DNA from: a virus | Virus record (IMG/VR): IMGVR_UViG_3300046804_002293 | Coordinates: 1-38,643 of that record | Direction: 5' to 3' (one strand) | DNA: 38,643 bases | In this document: positions 22,365-36,957 of the stretch, piece by piece | Numbering within the stretch: the first letter of the stretch is position 1 | Layout: each line of letters begins with the position of its first letter | The notes under the pieces: generated by a model | Databases searched by the model: none | The model's input: the letters and a program-made list of their open reading frames with translations, nothing else | What the model was told of the DNA's origin: nothing | Position numbers and translations under genes: made by a program

Positions 22365-23307
22365 AAAGAAGCGCAAGAGCGGTCTGAACCCGAGGGCCTT
22401 GGAAGACATTAGGGCCGAGCGTAAGAACCCCAGCATGCCCACCAAGGGGCCGTTTGCCGAACTAGAGCAGCGATATTTGGGGTACGACACAAATCCACGC
22501 CCTGTCCGCACAGTAGAAGACATGGCTACTGACCTAGGGTTTACGTACGACGAACTATTCGGTGATCCTACGGAAACCCCCGCTGCTGGTCCTACCCGTG
22601 CCTCAGCGACCTCCTCCTACCCGCAGGCACCAAGGTCTGCTTACTACCCCGGAAACCCTCCTCCTCCGTCTTCTCCCCCTAGTTCTGCCTATTATCCCGG
22701 AAACCCCCCTCCCCCCAATGGAGGAGGCACTGCGGCGACCAACGGAGGTGGCTTCTTCGGCAAGGTAAGCCGAGGCATGGACAAGGCCGACCCATACGTA
22801 CCGACGGCTATGAAGGCCGTCAAAGCGGCGTTCAGGCCCTCTCCGTACGCCCCCATGACATGGATAGAGCATCAGATGTCCTCAGAGGGACGAGGAATGC
22901 TCTATGGGCGTGGCCCGCAGATTGCGCCGTTGTACGGAATCGAAACTCGCCCCTATCAGATTCAGCCCCGTAACCGACGAAGCCCTGAGGAAGTATTCAC
23001 GTCCCCTTGGCACGACCCCAACATGTCTCAGGTCAGTGAACCGGGAACTGATATCGGATATCCGGCAGCACAGCCCAATATGCCGTGGGGAAGCGGTCCA
23101 ATGATGAGCGGCGTAGGAAACTCCCCGGCTGAGCGCCTACATCGACAGGTAGACCTTCTCCATGAGAACACCACTGGGACCCTTTGGGGTTCCGCTCATG
23201 ACGCCGCTACAGGCAACATCGGCGGTGATGTTCATACCCGTATGACTCGTGGCGTTGACCCCTCCGCACGAGTCCAACCAATCCGAGCACCTAAACCCGA
23301 GAACTAA
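22357..23307 (+). CDS. Pro-rich basic hypothetical protein
   Basis: 316 residues from ATG 22357 (GAAGAAG upstream); an earlier in-frame ATG lies inside the HAD-like gene. The N-terminus is basic (MARKKRKSGLNPRALEDIRA). Residues 70-125 are Pro/Gly/Tyr-rich and include SAYYPGNPPPP twice. The remainder is hydrophilic with few strong secondary elements (e.g. PYVPTAMKAVKAAFRPS). Probably a disordered structural or scaffold-type protein. No family recognised. Confidence 0.65.
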   Translation: MARKKRKSGLNPRALEDIRAERKNPSMPTKGPFAELEQRYLGYDTNPRPVRTVEDMATDLGFTYDELFGDPTETPAAGPTRASATSSYPQAPRSAYYPGNPPPPSSPPSSAYYPGNPPPPNGGGTAATNGGGFFGKVSRGMDKADPYVPTAMKAVKAAFRPSPYAPMTWIEHQMSSEGRGMLYGRGPQIAPLYGIETRPYQIQPRNRRSPEEVFTSPWHDPNMSQVSEPGTDIGYPAAQPNMPWGSGPMMSGVGNSPAERLHRQVDLLHENTTGTLWGSAHDAATGNIGGDVHTRMTRGVDPSARVQPIRAPKPEN

Positions 23308-23311
23308 CAAC

Positions 23312-24640
23312 ATGACCAACATCTATCTCGCTGGTGGCGAAAACCCGACCCACCAGCAGATTCTGTCAGCGTGTGGAGCGATTCACATCGCTGTGAATGT
23401 CACATCTCTGCTACGTAGGAAGACTCTTTCGTGGGAGTTAGACCTTCCATACTCATATGAATGGGTCGCTTACTGCGATGGACCCGCTTCTTTGGAAGAC
23501 CTGCATCTGGTAGCCGACAGGGCCTCGGTCGAACCCAAGTGGGTGCTTGGACCTGAATCATGGTCAGAGTGGGGAGACAACTGGCTGCCTCTTTGGAACG
23601 GTGAGGGTGACCTTCCCAAGAACCGTCCTCACGGATTCGCTGTCACGGATCGGGTGTTCAAGGACGCTTCGCTGCGCCGGAGGTCTCTCGCTGCACGCAG
23701 CGCCGGAAACTGCCTTGGAACGATTACTGGAAGCACTGATCCGACCATCGCCAAGTACGACATCGTCGTTTCGGGGGCTTGGTGGTCGGTCATGAAGTTT
23801 GGCGAAACTCAGGTTTGGGACGGCAAAAAGATGAACCGTCTCAACGCAGAGCGCAAAAACGAAGTACGTACGAGATACGCCTCAGAAATCCAATCCATGG
23901 GTATCGATATCGATCTGATACTCATGGACGACCCTGATGAATCGGCACGACTGGCTGTTACCAGTTGGAATCGCTTTGCTGAAAGTCTTTCAACAGGTAA
24001 TGTATTGACGTTCCCAGTAAGCGCTGAAGTAACTACGGAGGAGAATTCTATGAGCGACTTTCGTGGTTCTTCACCCGATCTTCTTGATACGCGGTCCCCT
24101 AATGGGCGGCACCAAACCGTCCTGCCGGTCATTGGAATGTCATCAATTACGTCCACTGAGCGGTACGGTGACGGCTCTGAAGTCATCGAAGAGCAGGCCA
24201 TCGTTCACACCTCCAGCACCTCGCTACGACAGTGCGATAACTGCTTCCTAGCCTCGTCAGGCTGTCCCGGATTCCAAGCCGGTGCGTCCTGTGCGTATTC
24301 AATCCCGGTGGAGATTCGGTCCAAGGATCAGTTGCAGAGCGTCATGCAGGCCATGGTTGAGATGCAGACTCAGCGGGTGCTTCAGGCCCGGTTTGCCGAG
24401 GAAATTACTGGTCAGGAACTCACTGCCGAGGTCGGCAGGGAACTGGACAGGCTCTTCACATCGGTGGAGAAGATGCGAGACATCATGGACAACCGTGACA
24501 CCGTCAAGGTCACCATGGAGGCCCGTGGTCGGTCAGGAGTTCTCTCACGACTCTTTGGAGATCGTGTTGGAACCAACGCCAAGATGCTTTCGCAACCTAT
24601 CGACTCAGAAGACGTGATCGACGCTGTTATCGATGAATGA
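23312..24640 (+). CDS. Two-domain actinophage hypothetical protein
   Basis: 442 residues from ATG 23312 (four bases after the previous stop). Residues 1-230 start TNIYLAGGENPTHQQIL and include YDIVVSGAWWSVMKFGETQ and SMGIDIDLILMDDPDESA. The second part (from residue 247) has a Cys cluster CDNCFLASSGCPGF ... SCAYSIPVEIR and a helical stretch QSVMQAMVEMQTQRVLQARF, ending in GVLSRLFGDRV. Two-part proteins of this kind occur in other phages as separate genes; the role is unknown to me. A strong ribosome site before residue 247 suggests a second product (see next entry). Confidence 0.65.
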   Translation: MTNIYLAGGENPTHQQILSACGAIHIAVNVTSLLRRKTLSWELDLPYSYEWVAYCDGPASLEDLHLVADRASVEPKWVLGPESWSEWGDNWLPLWNGEGDLPKNRPHGFAVTDRVFKDASLRRRSLAARSAGNCLGTITGSTDPTIAKYDIVVSGAWWSVMKFGETQVWDGKKMNRLNAERKNEVRTRYASEIQSMGIDIDLILMDDPDESARLAVTSWNRFAESLSTGNVLTFPVSAEVTTEENSMSDFRGSSPDLLDTRSPNGRHQTVLPVIGMSSITSTERYGDGSEVIEEQAIVHTSSTSLRQCDNCFLASSGCPGFQAGASCAYSIPVEIRSKDQLQSVMQAMVEMQTQRVLQARFAEEITGQELTAEVGRELDRLFTSVEKMRDIMDNRDTVKVTMEARGRSGVLSRLFGDRVGTNAKMLSQPIDSEDVIDAVIDE

Positions 24641-24662
24641 CCTCCAAACGCTGAAGTAACTA
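24022..24662 (+). repeat. 14-bp direct repeat pair flanking the C-terminal domain
   Basis: CGCTGAAGTAACTA occurs at 24022-24035 and 24649-24662, 627 bp apart. The first copy sits in the coding sequence just before the internal ribosome site, the second just after the gene's TGA. It could mark an old gene boundary duplicated at both ends, or be chance; a 14-base exact match at exactly these boundaries is suggestive. Confidence 0.6.
24036..24052 (+). promoter_or_regulatory. Strong internal ribosome site and in-frame ATG
   Basis: CGGAGGAGAATTCTATG: the near-perfect Shine-Dalgarno GGAGGAG lies six bases upstream of ATG 24050, in frame with the surrounding gene (codon 247). It would give a 196-residue protein (24050-24640) consisting only of the Cys-cluster domain. 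Also unusual: 14 bases before it match the sequence just after the gene's end. Confidence 0.6.
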
Positions 24663-24691
24663 TCAGAGGCTGATACAGGTAGGAATGGCAT

Positions 24692-24925
24692 ATGTATCGT
24701 GGGGTCTACCTAACGTCGTGGGGAAACAGGTGGCAGGCGGCCATTCAGTACGGCGGCAAGCGTCGATATCTCGGCACGTATTCAACGCAAGAAAGCGCCG
24801 CCCGAGCGTATGACCGGGAGGCGCTTTCTCTGTACGGCGATGCTGCTCGGTTGAACTTCCCTCTAGGCCGAGAGAATCTTCACGATGGCGAAGACGAAGA
24901 ACATGAAGATGCTGAACGCTCCTAG
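24692..24925 (+). CDS. Stand-alone AP2/ERF-type DNA-binding protein
   Basis: 77 residues. Residues 2-57 form one AP2 domain: YRGVYLTSWGNRWQAAI, KRRYLGTYSTQESAARAYD and LYGDAARLNFP, a close match to bacterial/phage AP2 domains, which usually accompany HNH homing endonucleases. No HNH motif is present, so this is either an orphan DNA-binding protein or a remnant. The last ~20 acidic residues (GEDEEHEDAERS) overlap the 3' end of the leftward membrane gene and may be only read-through. The coding sequence also contains a strong terminator-like hairpin. It sits exactly at the junction of the two genome blocks. Confidence 0.8.
   Translation: MYRGVYLTSWGNRWQAAIQYGGKRRYLGTYSTQESAARAYDREALSLYGDAARLNFPLGRENLHDGEDEEHEDAERS
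24790..24829. terminator. Bidirectional terminator-like hairpin inside the AP2 gene
   Basis: AGAAAGCGCC (24790-24799) pairs perfectly with GGCGCTTTCT (24820-24829); four more pairs (CCCG/CGGG) follow past one mismatch, with a 10-base loop. The A-rich 5' flank and TTTCT 3' flank work on both strands. It lies between the ends of the rightward left block and the leftward membrane/VWA operon, the expected place for a shared terminator. Confidence 0.7.
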
Positions 24926-25294
24926 AACTACGAGCAGCCACGTCGGGAATGCGTAGGACAGTTTGTTGGAGGCCGGTTCTTTCACCCACCGGATCATGCG
25001 TAGCCCGATCAGCAGGCCCAGTCCTACCTGAGCGGCCTTCCACAGCATGATGATCGGGTTCCATGTCCACACGAACAGTGAGATGAACATCATCACCGGG
25101 AAGATGAAGAGCAGGTAGAACAGGATCGCCACCGAGGCCCGGTAGGCGTGGTCGACGGCGATTACTGGGGGCACCCCCTGAGTGCCCTGAGCCTTGGCAA
25201 CCCTGTAGGCGATGTCCGCTTGGGCCAGCCCCAGCGCTGCCTGTGTGGAAGCGCTTGGAAGCAATCCGTTCCGTTTGGCGTAGTTGATAGTCAT
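24863..25294 (-). CDS. Membrane protein
   Basis: 143 residues, leftward. The start is the ATG at 25294, with AAAGGAG about six bases upstream; the alternative ATG at 25315 has no good site. The N-terminal half is soluble (LPSASTQAALGLAQADIAYR). Residues ~55-85 (VAILFYLLFIFPVMMFISLF) and ~120-140 (LVVLGAFSIFMFFVFAIV) are hydrophobic, with a further short hydrophobic stretch in the middle, giving probably three transmembrane helices. It follows the VWA-domain gene in the same operon and could be its membrane partner. No family recognised. Confidence 0.75.
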   Translation of the reverse strand: MTINYAKRNGLLPSASTQAALGLAQADIAYRVAKAQGTQGVPPVIAVDHAYRASVAILFYLLFIFPVMMFISLFVWTWNPIIMLWKAAQVGLGLLIGLRMIRWVKEPASNKLSYAFPTWLLVVLGAFSIFMFFVFAIVKILSA

Positions 25295-25320
25295 ATCAAT
25301 CTCCTTTGGAGTCATCCCGA

Positions 25321-27417
25321 TCAGACGAGGCTGATCAGGATGTTCTCCAGTGCTTGAGGGATGTTGAGCAGGTCACCGATGGCGTACGCCTCGTCGGCAC
25401 CACGCTTGGAGGCCAACTGGTTGTCGGGCTGGAGGTCCTTGGAGTCGGACGAGTACCGGTCGTAGAAGAACAGCACCGAGTAGACGTTGGAGTGCTTCCA
25501 GTTCGACACCTTGATGCCGTCGTGGTTCCACACACCGTCGGTCATGACGATGACGAGGTGGGTCTTCTGAGGGCGCTCCTCGGAGAGGATCGAATTGAAC
25601 GCCGTGGTCGGGTCGGTACCACCGCCCGATCCGACGTAGGGGATGTACTCGGGGGAGTCCTGAGCCTCCCACAGCCGGTACCCGTTCTCGTTGAAGAGCG
25701 ACACGTCGCAGGAGATGCTGAGCCGGTCACAGGCAGCCTTCACGGCCCACGCTGCGGCCCCGAGTTCGTCGCCGGTACCCATCATCGATCCCGAGATGTC
25801 TAGGAACAGGGAGACGGCGAGGTCATGTCCGGGGTCACCGTCGTCGGTGTAGTTGCGGAAGACCTCAACGTCACCGGGCTGGCGGGTGCTGTACCGAAGC
25901 ACGTCCAGCACGCCCCGCCGCTGGCCGGTCTCCCAATGGGGAGCGCAGTCTTCGGTGGCGAGGAGGAAGGCCCGTTCGATGTCGTCCACGATGGCGAGGG
26001 CCTTGGAAGCGGCCTCCTCGTCGGTGCTGGAGGACACCTGTCCCCACTGAGGAAGCGCCCCGCTGTCGGTGGCGTGAGCCTCGTTCATGGCCTGAACGTC
26101 TTCGGACACCGCTTCGTCGTCCTTGAGTTCCTCAAGAGCGTCTTGGAGCGCTTCTCGGATGTCGTTCCTAGCCTTCCACTTGTCCTCGTAGGAGGAGTAC
26201 GACTCTTGGTCATCGTCGCCACCACCGGCACTCATCGAAGTCGACGAGGAGGAAGAGGAAGCCTCGGTCAGGCCCTGAGGCTGGTCGCCGGACTGGCCGC
26301 CTTCGTCGTCCTGCTCGTCGTTTCCGCTGCCCTGCTGGCCGCTGTTCTCCGGCTCGGTGCTGTCGCTCTTCGCCGGGATCGACTGCTGGGTCTTCTGACC
26401 GGTGTCAGCGATGCGCTGCTTGGTCTCCTCGGTACCCGAGGCAGCGTTGGAGGACCGTTCGAACGAACCGTGTGAGTCGGTCTGCCGGACGCTCATGTCA
26501 CCGAGGATGTCCATCATGCGGAGGACCGCTTTGACCATGTCGGTTGCCGTCGTGGCGACCATGTAGGAGACGATGGTCTTCTCCACATCGTCGGCAGTCC
26601 ACACCGGGGATTCCCACAGGGTGCGGGTGGAAGCACGAACCGTGTCGGGCAAGTAGTACCGACCAGCAGCCAGTGCCCACGAGGCGGGACCGCCGCCGTT
26701 GGCGCTTGAGACCATGTTCCGCATGACGAGGACGGTGAGGTAGGAGGAGATGTGGGGAGACTCCTCAACGAGGGCAGCCTCCATGCGCTGATCCTCCAGC
26801 AGGTTCCATGCCATCTGAAGGCGACCAATGTTGCCTCCCGCCCACGACAACGGGGTGTCCTCGGAGTCAAGGGCAGCGGGCTGAGCGATGGTCGACGGGA
26901 CGACGTAGCCCTCGGACCACGCTGCTGTCAGCAGTCCGTAGAACGGCACCGTGAAGAGGATGTGGCCGACCTCGTGGTAGAAGAGGCCACGGGTCTCTGC
27001 GGCGATCTGACGGAGTTCCTCGTCCGAGATGACCGTGTCTTCGACGCTGTCGCCGTAGTTCTTCTTCGACGTGAGGCGGTGGTCGTAGTTGACCGTGATC
27101 GACTTGAAGTCGGTGTAGGCGCTGATGCTGTGCGCCGGAGAGATAGACAGGGGAAGGCTGATACCCCATGAGTTCATGACCGCACGGAGTCGGGGCGTCA
27201 TGCCGTTGCTCACCATGTTCGTTCGGCGGTTTGTCTCACGGTCACGCTCACGACGGGCAGCGCTGGCGATCTCATGACGGGCATCTGCGAGCCGTCGGGC
27301 CTCACGCTCGGAGGCTTCACGAGCAAGGCGACGACGGGTGTTGCTGTGCGCTTGGCGAGCGACCTCGCTTGCCCATTGCTTCTTGCGTGGTTTGCGTGGC
27401 TTCGGTGTCGTAGTCAT
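25321..27417 (-). CDS. CobT-like protein: HExxH region plus VWA domain
   Basis: 698 residues from the ATG at 27417, directly after GGAGCCGCCCT; the open frame extends upstream through the promoter region and that part is not coding. The basic N-terminus (1-60) is a charged helix. HEVGH (148-152) forms a zincin-like site. The middle (~340-450) is Ser/Glu/Gln-rich and low-complexity. The C-terminus is a von Willebrand A domain with an intact MIDAS: LDISGS (D540, S542, S544), GGGTDP (T601) and MTDG (D627). The order matches CobT/'cobalamin biosynthesis protein CobT-VWA' relatives, which act with MoxR/CobS AAA+ ATPases as metal-insertion or protein-remodelling pairs. Its likely partner is the divergent AAA+ gene at 28050. 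Confidence 0.85.
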   Translation of the reverse strand: MTTTPKPRKPRKKQWASEVARQAHSNTRRRLAREASEREARRLADARHEIASAARRERDRETNRRTNMVSNGMTPRLRAVMNSWGISLPLSISPAHSISAYTDFKSITVNYDHRLTSKKNYGDSVEDTVISDEELRQIAAETRGLFYHEVGHILFTVPFYGLLTAAWSEGYVVPSTIAQPAALDSEDTPLSWAGGNIGRLQMAWNLLEDQRMEAALVEESPHISSYLTVLVMRNMVSSANGGGPASWALAAGRYYLPDTVRASTRTLWESPVWTADDVEKTIVSYMVATTATDMVKAVLRMMDILGDMSVRQTDSHGSFERSSNAASGTEETKQRIADTGQKTQQSIPAKSDSTEPENSGQQGSGNDEQDDEGGQSGDQPQGLTEASSSSSSTSMSAGGGDDDQESYSSYEDKWKARNDIREALQDALEELKDDEAVSEDVQAMNEAHATDSGALPQWGQVSSSTDEEAASKALAIVDDIERAFLLATEDCAPHWETGQRRGVLDVLRYSTRQPGDVEVFRNYTDDGDPGHDLAVSLFLDISGSMMGTGDELGAAAWAVKAACDRLSISCDVSLFNENGYRLWEAQDSPEYIPYVGSGGGTDPTTAFNSILSEERPQKTHLVIVMTDGVWNHDGIKVSNWKHSNVYSVLFFYDRYSSDSKDLQPDNQLASKRGADEAYAIGDLLNIPQALENILISLV

Positions 27418-27483
27418 AGGGCGGCTCCAGTGGGTGGGTTGATCAGACAAGGCAAGGATACGGGATGCTTGAGGTAGATGCAA
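27418..27483 (-). promoter_or_regulatory. Promoter P1 with start-associated sequence, for the VWA gene
   Basis: Read leftward: TTGCAT (27478-27483), 17 bp, TATCCT (27455-27460), leader with TCTGATCAACC, and GGAGCCGCCCT (27418-27428) touching the ATG. The -35 begins one base after the upstream gene's stop. It belongs to the seven-member promoter family of the right block. Confidence 0.8.
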
Positions 27484-27705
27484 CTACTTCTTCAAGTCGG
27501 GCTTCTTGCGGCGGTAGATGGGTCGACACCGGTCAGCGGTGAATGAGCGAAACATCGCCTTCCCGTTCGATCCTCCGAAGACGGTCACGTCTCCGTTGTC
27601 GTGCACCTTCTTGAAGAGGAATCGTCCTCGTTCGTTCTTAACCTTGATCTCGGTGTCGATCTCAACGGTCGACCAGTCGATCTTCTTCTCAGGGTTCGTT
27701 GCCAT
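27484..27705 (-). CDS. Small basic hypothetical protein
   Basis: 73 residues, leftward, from ATG 27705 preceded by the start-associated sequence GGAGCCGCCTT (27706-27716). Lys/Arg-rich with a beta-strand-like core (RFLFKKVHDNGDVTVFGG ... FRSFTADRC), like small SH3-like or nucleic-acid-binding folds. It precedes the VWA gene, which has its own promoter. Function unknown. Confidence 0.7.
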   Translation of the reverse strand: MATNPEKKIDWSTVEIDTEIKVKNERGRFLFKKVHDNGDVTVFGGSNGKAMFRSFTADRCRPIYRRKKPDLKK

Positions 27706-28049: not shown

Positions 28050-29294
28050 ATGACTACCAAGACCAGCAAGATGCAGCCCGGTGACACCTACGTCGTGACC
28101 GGTGGAAAGTTGAAGGGTCGCACGGTGACCGTCGTGGACCCAACCATCTTCCCCGACACCGACATGGTTCGCCGTCGCAAGATCACCGTCGACTTCAACG
28201 GAGAGCACGTCTACCTGCTTCCCCGTTTGCTGGAGTCGCCGTCGACCTACAACGCTCAGCCCAGCAACGTGGTCTCGCTGCCGCCTCAGGGCTACAGCGT
28301 CCCCCACCCGACCGAGGCCAACGAGCGCATCGTCATCCCCGGCAACATCACCGATGTGAACGATCCACGCCTTGACCCGTGGCGACCGGACCCGTCGATC
28401 CTCAAGGGCTACGTCAGCCGTAACGTCCCCAACGGTCAGAGCGACACGGACTTCCTGCTGTCGTTCTACGACAAGAAGGACAACGTGCTGCTCGTCGGTG
28501 ACACGCAGGCCGGAAAGACGCTGCTCGTGCAGGTGCTCGCAGTGCTCGCCGGTAAGCGCACCGCTTCGGGCAAGCCGCTCCCCGTGTTCACCCTCTCCGG
28601 GTCGAACGGTGTGACCGACTTCGACCTGTTCGGTCAGCCCACCGCCTTCACGACCCCCGACGGTCAGGAGCGCCTCGTGTGGCTCCCCGGTGTCTGCGAT
28701 CTCGCAGCCCGAGCCGGTGGTGTGCTCTACCTTGACGAGGTCAACATGATGCCCGAGCGGGTCACGTCGTCCCTCCATCCCCTGACCGACCACCGCCGTG
28801 CGTTCGTCAACCGTCAGCGTGCGGTGCGCTTCGAACACGAGGGCACCGAGGTGTTCATGCCCGACGTGGTCAACGCCAGCGACGACCTGTGGATCGTCGG
28901 CACCATGAACCCCGGCTACAAGGGTGCTGGCAGCCTCAACGAGGCGTTCACCAACCGGTTCCGCTGGATTCCGTGGGGCTACGACGAGGCCGTGGAGAAG
29001 AAACTGATCCCGAGCGCCAGCGTGCGCCTGCTGGGTCAGGCACTCCGTGAGGCCCGCAGTGGTCGGTCGATCACGACTCCGGTCGGCACGTCGGCGCTCA
29101 GCCGCCTGTGCGAGGACGTGGAGGTCTACGGGGTCGACACGGCTCTGTGGATGTTCAAGGCCATGTTCTCCCCGCAGGAGCAGCCCAAGGTGGAGGCCAT
29201 CATCCAAGACCGGTCGATCACGATGCTGCTCAACGACGAGCAGGTCGCCAAGAATGGACCGGCTCCGACCATCGACCCGGTCGAACCGTTCTGA
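28050..29294 (+). CDS. CobS/MoxR-like AAA+ ATPase
   Basis: 414 residues. After an N-terminal ~110-residue region (a beta-rich part GDTYVVTGGKLKGRTVTVVD) comes an AAA+ core: Walker A GDTQAGKT (150-157), Walker B LYLDEVN (228-234, D229/E230), sensor 1-like GTMNPGYKGAG and Arg-finger-like FTNRFRW. Between Walker A and B lies SGSNGVTDFDLFGQPTAF, the CobS/MoxR-type pattern, and the gene pairs with the VWA-domain gene encoded divergently. Such ATPases act as rings, moving a VWA partner or its client. In phages these pairs are not understood. Strongly G+C-rich codon use. Confidence 0.88.
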   Translation: MTTKTSKMQPGDTYVVTGGKLKGRTVTVVDPTIFPDTDMVRRRKITVDFNGEHVYLLPRLLESPSTYNAQPSNVVSLPPQGYSVPHPTEANERIVIPGNITDVNDPRLDPWRPDPSILKGYVSRNVPNGQSDTDFLLSFYDKKDNVLLVGDTQAGKTLLVQVLAVLAGKRTASGKPLPVFTLSGSNGVTDFDLFGQPTAFTTPDGQERLVWLPGVCDLAARAGGVLYLDEVNMMPERVTSSLHPLTDHRRAFVNRQRAVRFEHEGTEVFMPDVVNASDDLWIVGTMNPGYKGAGSLNEAFTNRFRWIPWGYDEAVEKKLIPSASVRLLGQALREARSGRSITTPVGTSALSRLCEDVEVYGVDTALWMFKAMFSPQEQPKVEAIIQDRSITMLLNDEQVAKNGPAPTIDPVEPF

Positions 29295-35680: not shown

Positions 35681-35705
35681 CCCCACCGACTCCCCGGTCG
35701 ACCGA

Positions 35706-35735
35706 GGCCCACCCTCCGGGGTGGGCCTTTGTCGT
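35706..35735 (+). terminator. Intrinsic terminator
   Basis: A perfect 9-bp stem, GGCCCACCC (35706-35714) with GGGTGGGCC (35719-35727), loop TCCG, then TTTGTCGTTGT. It ends the P5 unit. Confidence 0.85.
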
Positions 35736-36904: not shown

Positions 36905-36926
36905 CCGAGAACAGCGCACCACGAGA

Positions 36927-36957
36927 GGCCCTCTCCCCCACCGGGAGGGGGCCTTTC
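36927..36957 (+). terminator. Intrinsic terminator
   Basis: GGCCCTCTCCC (36927-36937) pairs with GGGAGGGGGCC (36943-36953), one wobble, short loop, then TTTCTCGTTC; flanking CGAGA/TCTCG lengthens the stem. Confidence 0.85.

Follow-up and report, generated by a model that had tools for sequence, protein, structure and literature searches.

At one point in the genome of an uncultured phage, a rightward and a leftward block of genes meet in a very short gene for an AP2 domain, and the coding sequence of this gene contains a long hairpin. Which of the two converging transcripts, if either, does the hairpin serve, and which came first, the gene or the hairpin? A sequence-only reading of the region had described a terminator readable from both sides and had offered two histories: either an AP2 gene landed on a terminator, or the coding sequence evolved to serve both purposes. 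Here, the whole stretch of DNA analysed (hereafter the window) is a complete IMG/VR virus record of 38,643 bases.

A hairpin in the AP2 gene at the junction of two gene blocks

The coordinates of the features at the junction are collected in Table 1. The last gene of the rightward block carries the PHROG label queuine tRNA-ribosyltransferase. The leftward block spans 27705 to 24863, and the AP2 gene forms the junction, lying between the two blocks and across both, as the sequence-only reading had placed it. The AP2 gene and the 150-aa leftward gene form a convergent overlap of 63 nt (24863-24925); the overlap is 51 nt in each of two relatives, L010 and L011, both of which have 50% identical homologues of the 150-aa gene. 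As this overlap deprives the two convergent genes of any intergenic space, a nearby terminator of the leftward block is possible only within the AP2 gene. Across the junction, the G+C content rises at about 24860 from 0.53 to 0.61, and the same step is seen in L010 (0.526/0.593) and L011 (0.520/0.586).

Table 1. Genes and hairpin elements at the junction of the rightward and leftward blocks
Feature	Position	Strand	Description
Upstream gene	23249..24640	+	463 aa, last gene of the rightward block; phrog_887
Orphan AP2-domain gene	24692..24925	+	77-aa ORF
Membrane-protein-like gene	24863..25315	-	150 aa, ends the leftward block, inside the AP2 gene
720-aa gene	25321..27483	-	leftward block; phrog_1576, unknown function
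Stem arm	24790..24804	-	AGAAAGCGCC, one mismatch, CCCG on the plus strand; 3' arm of the leftward RNA
Stem arm	24815..24829	-	CGGG, one mismatch, GGCGCTTTCT on the plus strand; 5' arm of the leftward RNA
T-rich tail of the putative leftward terminator	24780..24794	-	TTTCTTGCGTTGAAT on the minus strand, past the G+C core 24795-24824
Weaker T-rich tail	24825..24839	+	TTTCTCTGTACGGCG; missing in both L010 and L011

The hairpin (24790-24829) is made up of codons 33-46 of the AP2 gene. As first described, it has 14 Watson-Crick pairs and one mismatch (G/A); they enclose a 10-nt loop, and the plus strand reads AGAAAGCGCC-g-CCCG, loop AGCGTATGAC, CGGG-a-GGCGCTTTCT. This stem is the longest of the 38.6-kb window, the runner-up stems having 11 pairs, and the local fold energy is -26.3 kcal/mol on the plus strand and -27.6 kcal/mol on the minus strand. 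The arm at 24790..24804 is unchanged in L010 and L011. From the leftward stop codon to the start of the hairpin there are 33 nt in the window and 37 nt in both L010 and L011. On the minus strand, the G+C core is followed by the tail TTTCTTG, in which T is mixed and not pure, with a tail score of 3.33 in the window, 3.33 in L010 and 3.59 in L011. Three features of an intrinsic terminator are present here, namely a stable G+C-rich hairpin, an adjoining T/U-rich tract and a short distance past the leftward gene, and this terminator-like site (24780-24829) accompanies an overlap of convergent genes and lies inside one of them. A preset terminator scan of the window does not list the hairpin, because the loop size in that scan is limited to 3-8 nt. 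Rfam and tRNA scans gave no matches.

An AP2 protein without a nuclease

The Pfam AP2 profile (PF00847) matches the 77-aa ORF with an E value of 9.6e-8 and 32.7 bits, against a slightly higher curated cut-off of 33.3, and a profile built from six orphan proteins matches solved plant AP2/ERF chains with E values of 1.3e-12 to 1.3e-6. The PHROG families matched by the AP2 ORF are HNH endonucleases, e.g., HNH-AP2 phrog_99 (E 1.7e-15), and by our reading these matches run through their AP2 part. For the HNH domain, PF13392 and PF01844 have no match across the window record, which bears out the earlier description of the AP2 gene as an orphan; the HNH nuclease domain of an HNH-AP2 homing endonuclease is absent from the record.

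The dN/dS ratio of the AP2 gene is 0.10 for the window vs. L010, 0.20 for the window vs. L011 and 0.21 for L010 vs. L011, and it is 0.08 to 0.14 for codons 1-57; dS is close to saturation for the pairs involving the window. From these ratios, the gene looks to be under maintenance. At 24863-24925, the codons for its acidic C-terminal tail lie opposite those for the hydrophobic end of the membrane protein encoded leftward. Judged from the translations, the tail would be acidic because its codons are complementary to those of the hydrophobic end on the other strand, and it is probably a by-product of the gene overlap.

The stem is longer than the AP2 protein demands

When the AP2 gene was recoded with synonymous codons, 14 pairs were reached by one of 3000 recodings under phage codon usage and by none of 3000 under uniform codons. 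The window stem exceeds the demand of the AP2 protein. For the 11-pair stems of L010 and L011, the corresponding numbers are 23 and 25 of 3000.

We also measured the stems of the best 80 of 125 viral AP2 relatives, all of which share the motif AARAYD[RE][EA]. The top three of these 80 loci are a contig nearly identical to the window (14 pairs), L010 and L011 (11 pairs each). The other 77 loci, set apart from the orphans by 78-513 residues ahead of the motif alone, reach 10 pairs once and 8 pairs once, and the rest have at most 7, most commonly 5. As these 77 motif-bearing AP2 genes have no long stem, the AARAYD motif by itself is insufficient for one. The same three sequences stand out in another sample, 56 AP2 loci obtained by an orphan-profile search, in which the others have at most 9 pairs; the region measured there was longer, comprising the match and 60 nt more.

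Ten of the 14 stem pairs form in the window, L010 and L011 alike, and 81% of the cells of the three-sequence stem are paired vs. 40-52% in slid controls, a comparison biased towards a structure derived from one row. Covariation was not detected, with none of the 14 pairs changed on both sides among the three distinct hairpin sequences. Six consecutive codons in the 5' arm of the hairpin are identical between the window and L010. In the neighbouring gene, complete identity between the two is likewise seen for 9 of 105 blocks of six codons, so the identity of the arm is unexceptional and was not counted as evidence of synonymous constraint.

Terminator scores of the two strands

Each strand was scored with the d-score formula of d'Aubenton Carafa, with ViennaRNA energies replacing the original ones. 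At the hairpin, the minus strand scores +1.2, the best value on the whole minus strand of the window, and the plus strand scores -2.5, the fourth value on that strand. The score of +1.2 is modest: at least one site as good occurs on one 38.6-kb strand in 8 of 30 Markov shuffles (mean 0.3), and the genome-wide rarity by d-score alone is not significant.

In the relatives, the minus-strand score rises to +8.6 (L010) and +13.3 (L011), each the best of the minus-strand stretch scanned, and the best plus-strand score within the AP2 gene is -50.2 and -65.9, respectively. Among 1000 synonymous recodings, the observed minus-strand score was reached by 0, 0 and 2 (window, L010 and L011, in this order), and shuffling of the gene's own synonymous codons gave 0, 0 and 0 of 1000. 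The observed plus-strand score was reached by 1, 306 and 731 of 1000. The earlier description of a terminator readable from both sides holds for the window; it fails in L010 and L011, where the rightward T-rich tail is gone and the leftward one is kept. Taken together, the asymmetry of the scores, the spacing and the overlap point to a putative leftward terminator.

Elsewhere in the window, the strongest terminator-like hairpins lie at 35705-35728 and 36926-36954 and are rightward, with d-scores of 26.5 and 23.8.

The AP2 gene is older than the hairpin

For the order of events, the best 80 of 181 viral loci related to the upstream gene were used. The contig holding L002, L009, L114 and L194 differs from the window by one base in 11,389 and was excluded as an independent relative. 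In their upstream genes, L010 and L011 share about 75% identity with the window and 95% with each other; they retain the AP2 gene, the junction and the hairpin, and they are the only distinct relatives with the hairpin. In the upstream-gene tree, the window, L010, L011, L012, L013, L014 and L217 form one clade (100/100), and the forks inside the group of the window, L012 and L010 plus L011 are weakly supported (86/88). The outgroup consisted of 7 of the 74 other upstream-gene loci; in one of them, L043, a single stop interrupts the part of the gene that entered the tree.

The orphan AP2 gene follows the upstream gene in six of the seven lineages of the clade, the exception being L012, a nearer relative, in which the two blocks are 3 nt apart and neither the AP2 gene nor the hairpin is present. 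L013 and L014 have the AP2 gene, no adjoining homologue of the leftward genes and no hairpin, and in L217 the AP2 gene overlaps a leftward ORF by 56 nt, again with no hairpin. In these three distant relatives, the AP2 protein is without the AARAYD helix motif. Among the 81 loci scanned (L009-L088 and L217), AP2 was not found in the 74 loci L015-L088, an absence that is no proof because some of these loci have short flanks. No relative was recovered from genome contigs when the upstream gene served as the query, and phage records gave no DNA match to 23000-27500; AP2 matches in 260 phage records all have <60% identity, and none covers 80% of the query.

Since the AP2 gene occurs without the hairpin in L013, L014 and L217, and L012 has neither, the AP2 gene is ancestral and the hairpin arose later within it. 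The idea that an AP2 gene landed on a terminator is contradicted by this distribution, and its counterpart, a coding sequence that evolved to serve both purposes, is supported. The sequence-only reading had also proposed to see whether the hairpin remains in relatives lacking the AP2 gene, and in the one such relative compared, L012, it is missing as well. It had further expected an intact AP2 gene to come with the hairpin; L013, L014 and L217 run counter to this, which makes the hairpin a feature of the group of the window, L010 and L011 and not of orphan AP2 genes at large. As the junctions of L012 and L217 have no comparable hairpin, such a junction can do without one.

Interpretation and competing explanations

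With a probability of about 0.7, we interpret the hairpin as an intrinsic terminator of the leftward block, located within the AP2 gene on its antisense strand. Once RNA polymerase, moving leftward, had passed the stop codon of the 150-aa gene, the RNA would fold into the G+C-rich hairpin about 33 nt further on, a spacing that the two relatives share, and release would take place in the TTTCTTG tract. In the rightward direction, the hairpin sequence would be ordinary AP2 coding sequence, and ribosomes on the AP2 mRNA would keep it open. The AP2 gene came first, and the terminator would have been made later from the codons of the AARAYD helix by synonymous codon choice, probably under selection, in the ancestor that the window shares with L010 and L011. 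In a stricter version, which we consider quite improbable, the hairpin would be a translation-gated one-way terminator: leftward RNA would always stop, and rightward RNA would pass only while AP2 is translated. If this were true, failure of AP2 translation would stop the rightward RNA and shield the leftward block from collision, and AP2 translation would set the border between the two blocks.

A terminator that stops both blocks would agree with the window itself, where a T-rich flank follows the hairpin on either strand and the plus-strand score, fourth best, is equalled by a single recoding in 1000. However, L010 and L011 keep the hairpin and the leftward tail but not the rightward tail, and their plus-strand scores are equalled by hundreds of recodings. 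Moreover, a rightward stop would truncate the AP2 mRNA mid-frame, and AP2 translation would hinder the formation of the hairpin, so we regard a stop in both directions as unlikely. Somewhat less credit is due to the proposal that the stem is a functionless accident of codon usage, the AARAYDRE/EA motif favouring GCCGCC...GGCGGC codons. The residues of the motif do permit the stem core, recoding yields the 11-pair stems of L010 and L011 in 23 and 25 of 3000 cases, and covariation is lacking among the stem pairs; yet the stem is missing from the 77 other AP2 genes with the same motif (among the best 80 of 125), the window stem and the minus-strand scores are hardly ever reached by recoding, and place and spacing suit a leftward stop in all three sequences.

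The hairpin might instead have its role in the AP2 mRNA itself, read rightward, where it could block 3' exonucleases or slow the translation of AP2, and its stability on the plus-strand RNA is about equal to that on the minus strand. Nevertheless, it lies mid-gene, and the leftward tail kept beyond the stem would be needless for such a role, which makes this explanation very improbable. Finally, the inverted repeat could be a DNA site at which the AP2 protein regulates its own gene. The stem sequence GCGCCGCC, which we take to resemble the plant GCC box, occurs once on the plus strand of the window and GGCGGCGC never, i.e., the sequence is found only in the stem, and L010 and L011 also hold it as an inverted repeat. 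However, of the eight residues that presumably contact the GCC box in AtERF1, only three (R, W and R) are kept in the window protein when the alignment is read, and GCCGCC merely encodes the Ala-Ala of the motif. An AP2 binding site, hardly credible on these grounds, was rejected because the contact residues are not kept. The explanation that we prefer remains the leftward terminator.

A direct repeat and other nearby features

A direct repeat, GAAGTAACTA (CGCTGAAGTAACTA in the window), was observed inside the upstream gene (24026) and just past its stop codon (24653), in the regions 24016-24052 and 24643-24694. The repeat copies of L010 and L011 agree over about 22-24 nt and differ jointly from those of the window, and AGCAACTATC is found at either site in L012; from lineage to lineage, the two copies change in concert. 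For GAAGTAACTAY, 2 matches were found vs. 0.01 expected by chance. Each copy precedes a start codon in the window, L010 and L011, and one of these starts, an ATG within the gene, is preceded by a GGAGGAG- or GGGGAG-like sequence. In the window, this Shine-Dalgarno-like GGAGGAG with an in-frame ATG lies at 24036-24052 inside the upstream gene, with a similar arrangement in L010 and L011, which suggests that a second product may be made from the C-terminal part of this gene.

On the other side of the junction, the 720-aa leftward gene has homologues in L010, L011 and L012. It stands back to back with a rightward AAA gene (28050-29294, PF07728), MoxR-like by our reading, and the pair recurs in L010, L011, L012 and L105.

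Comparison with known systems

Ju, Li and Liu reportedly described bidirectional terminators between convergent genes in 2019. The window hairpin resembles these in lying where convergent genes meet, with one side A-rich and the other T-rich; unlike them, only the leftward side is kept by the relatives of the window.

The AP2 domain is related to the HNH-AP2 PHROGs, as in phage HNH-AP2 homing endonucleases and their pieces in ICP1, where, according to the passage on gp115-gp116, an orphan AP2 gene lies beside a broken HNH gene (PMC10448857). In contrast to what that passage describes, the AP2 gene of the window is a stand-alone gene that has its own start and is inherited together with a single neighbouring gene.

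Convergent transcripts often extend into the opposite gene in R. prowazekii, as stated in a section of PMC3027695. A statistical study of overlapping prokaryotic genes points out that the terminators of convergent overlapping genes must sit in the coding sequence of the partner; among 58 such overlaps in E. coli, a rho-independent terminator was predicted for one gene in 19 and for both genes in 2 (PMC2174442). The locus described here resembles these E. coli overlaps in that the likely terminator of one gene lies in the coding sequence of the other, so that one sequence has a dual coding and regulatory character. It differs from them in belonging to an uncultured phage, in the shortness of the gene, in being known from sequence alone, and in having phage relatives that show strand-specific upkeep of the tail.

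In the literature searched, we found no report of an AP2 gene carrying a terminator. Within about 235 bases, the coding sequence of a domain, the end of an opposing gene and the likely terminator of the latter are superimposed, and the relatives allow the order to be read as DNA-binding gene first and terminator second. The locus may serve to test to what extent transcription signals in compact phage genomes can be built by the choice of synonymous codons. The principle of a terminator within a convergent overlap is already known from bacteria, and the phage AP2 gene is a compact and well-preserved example of it.
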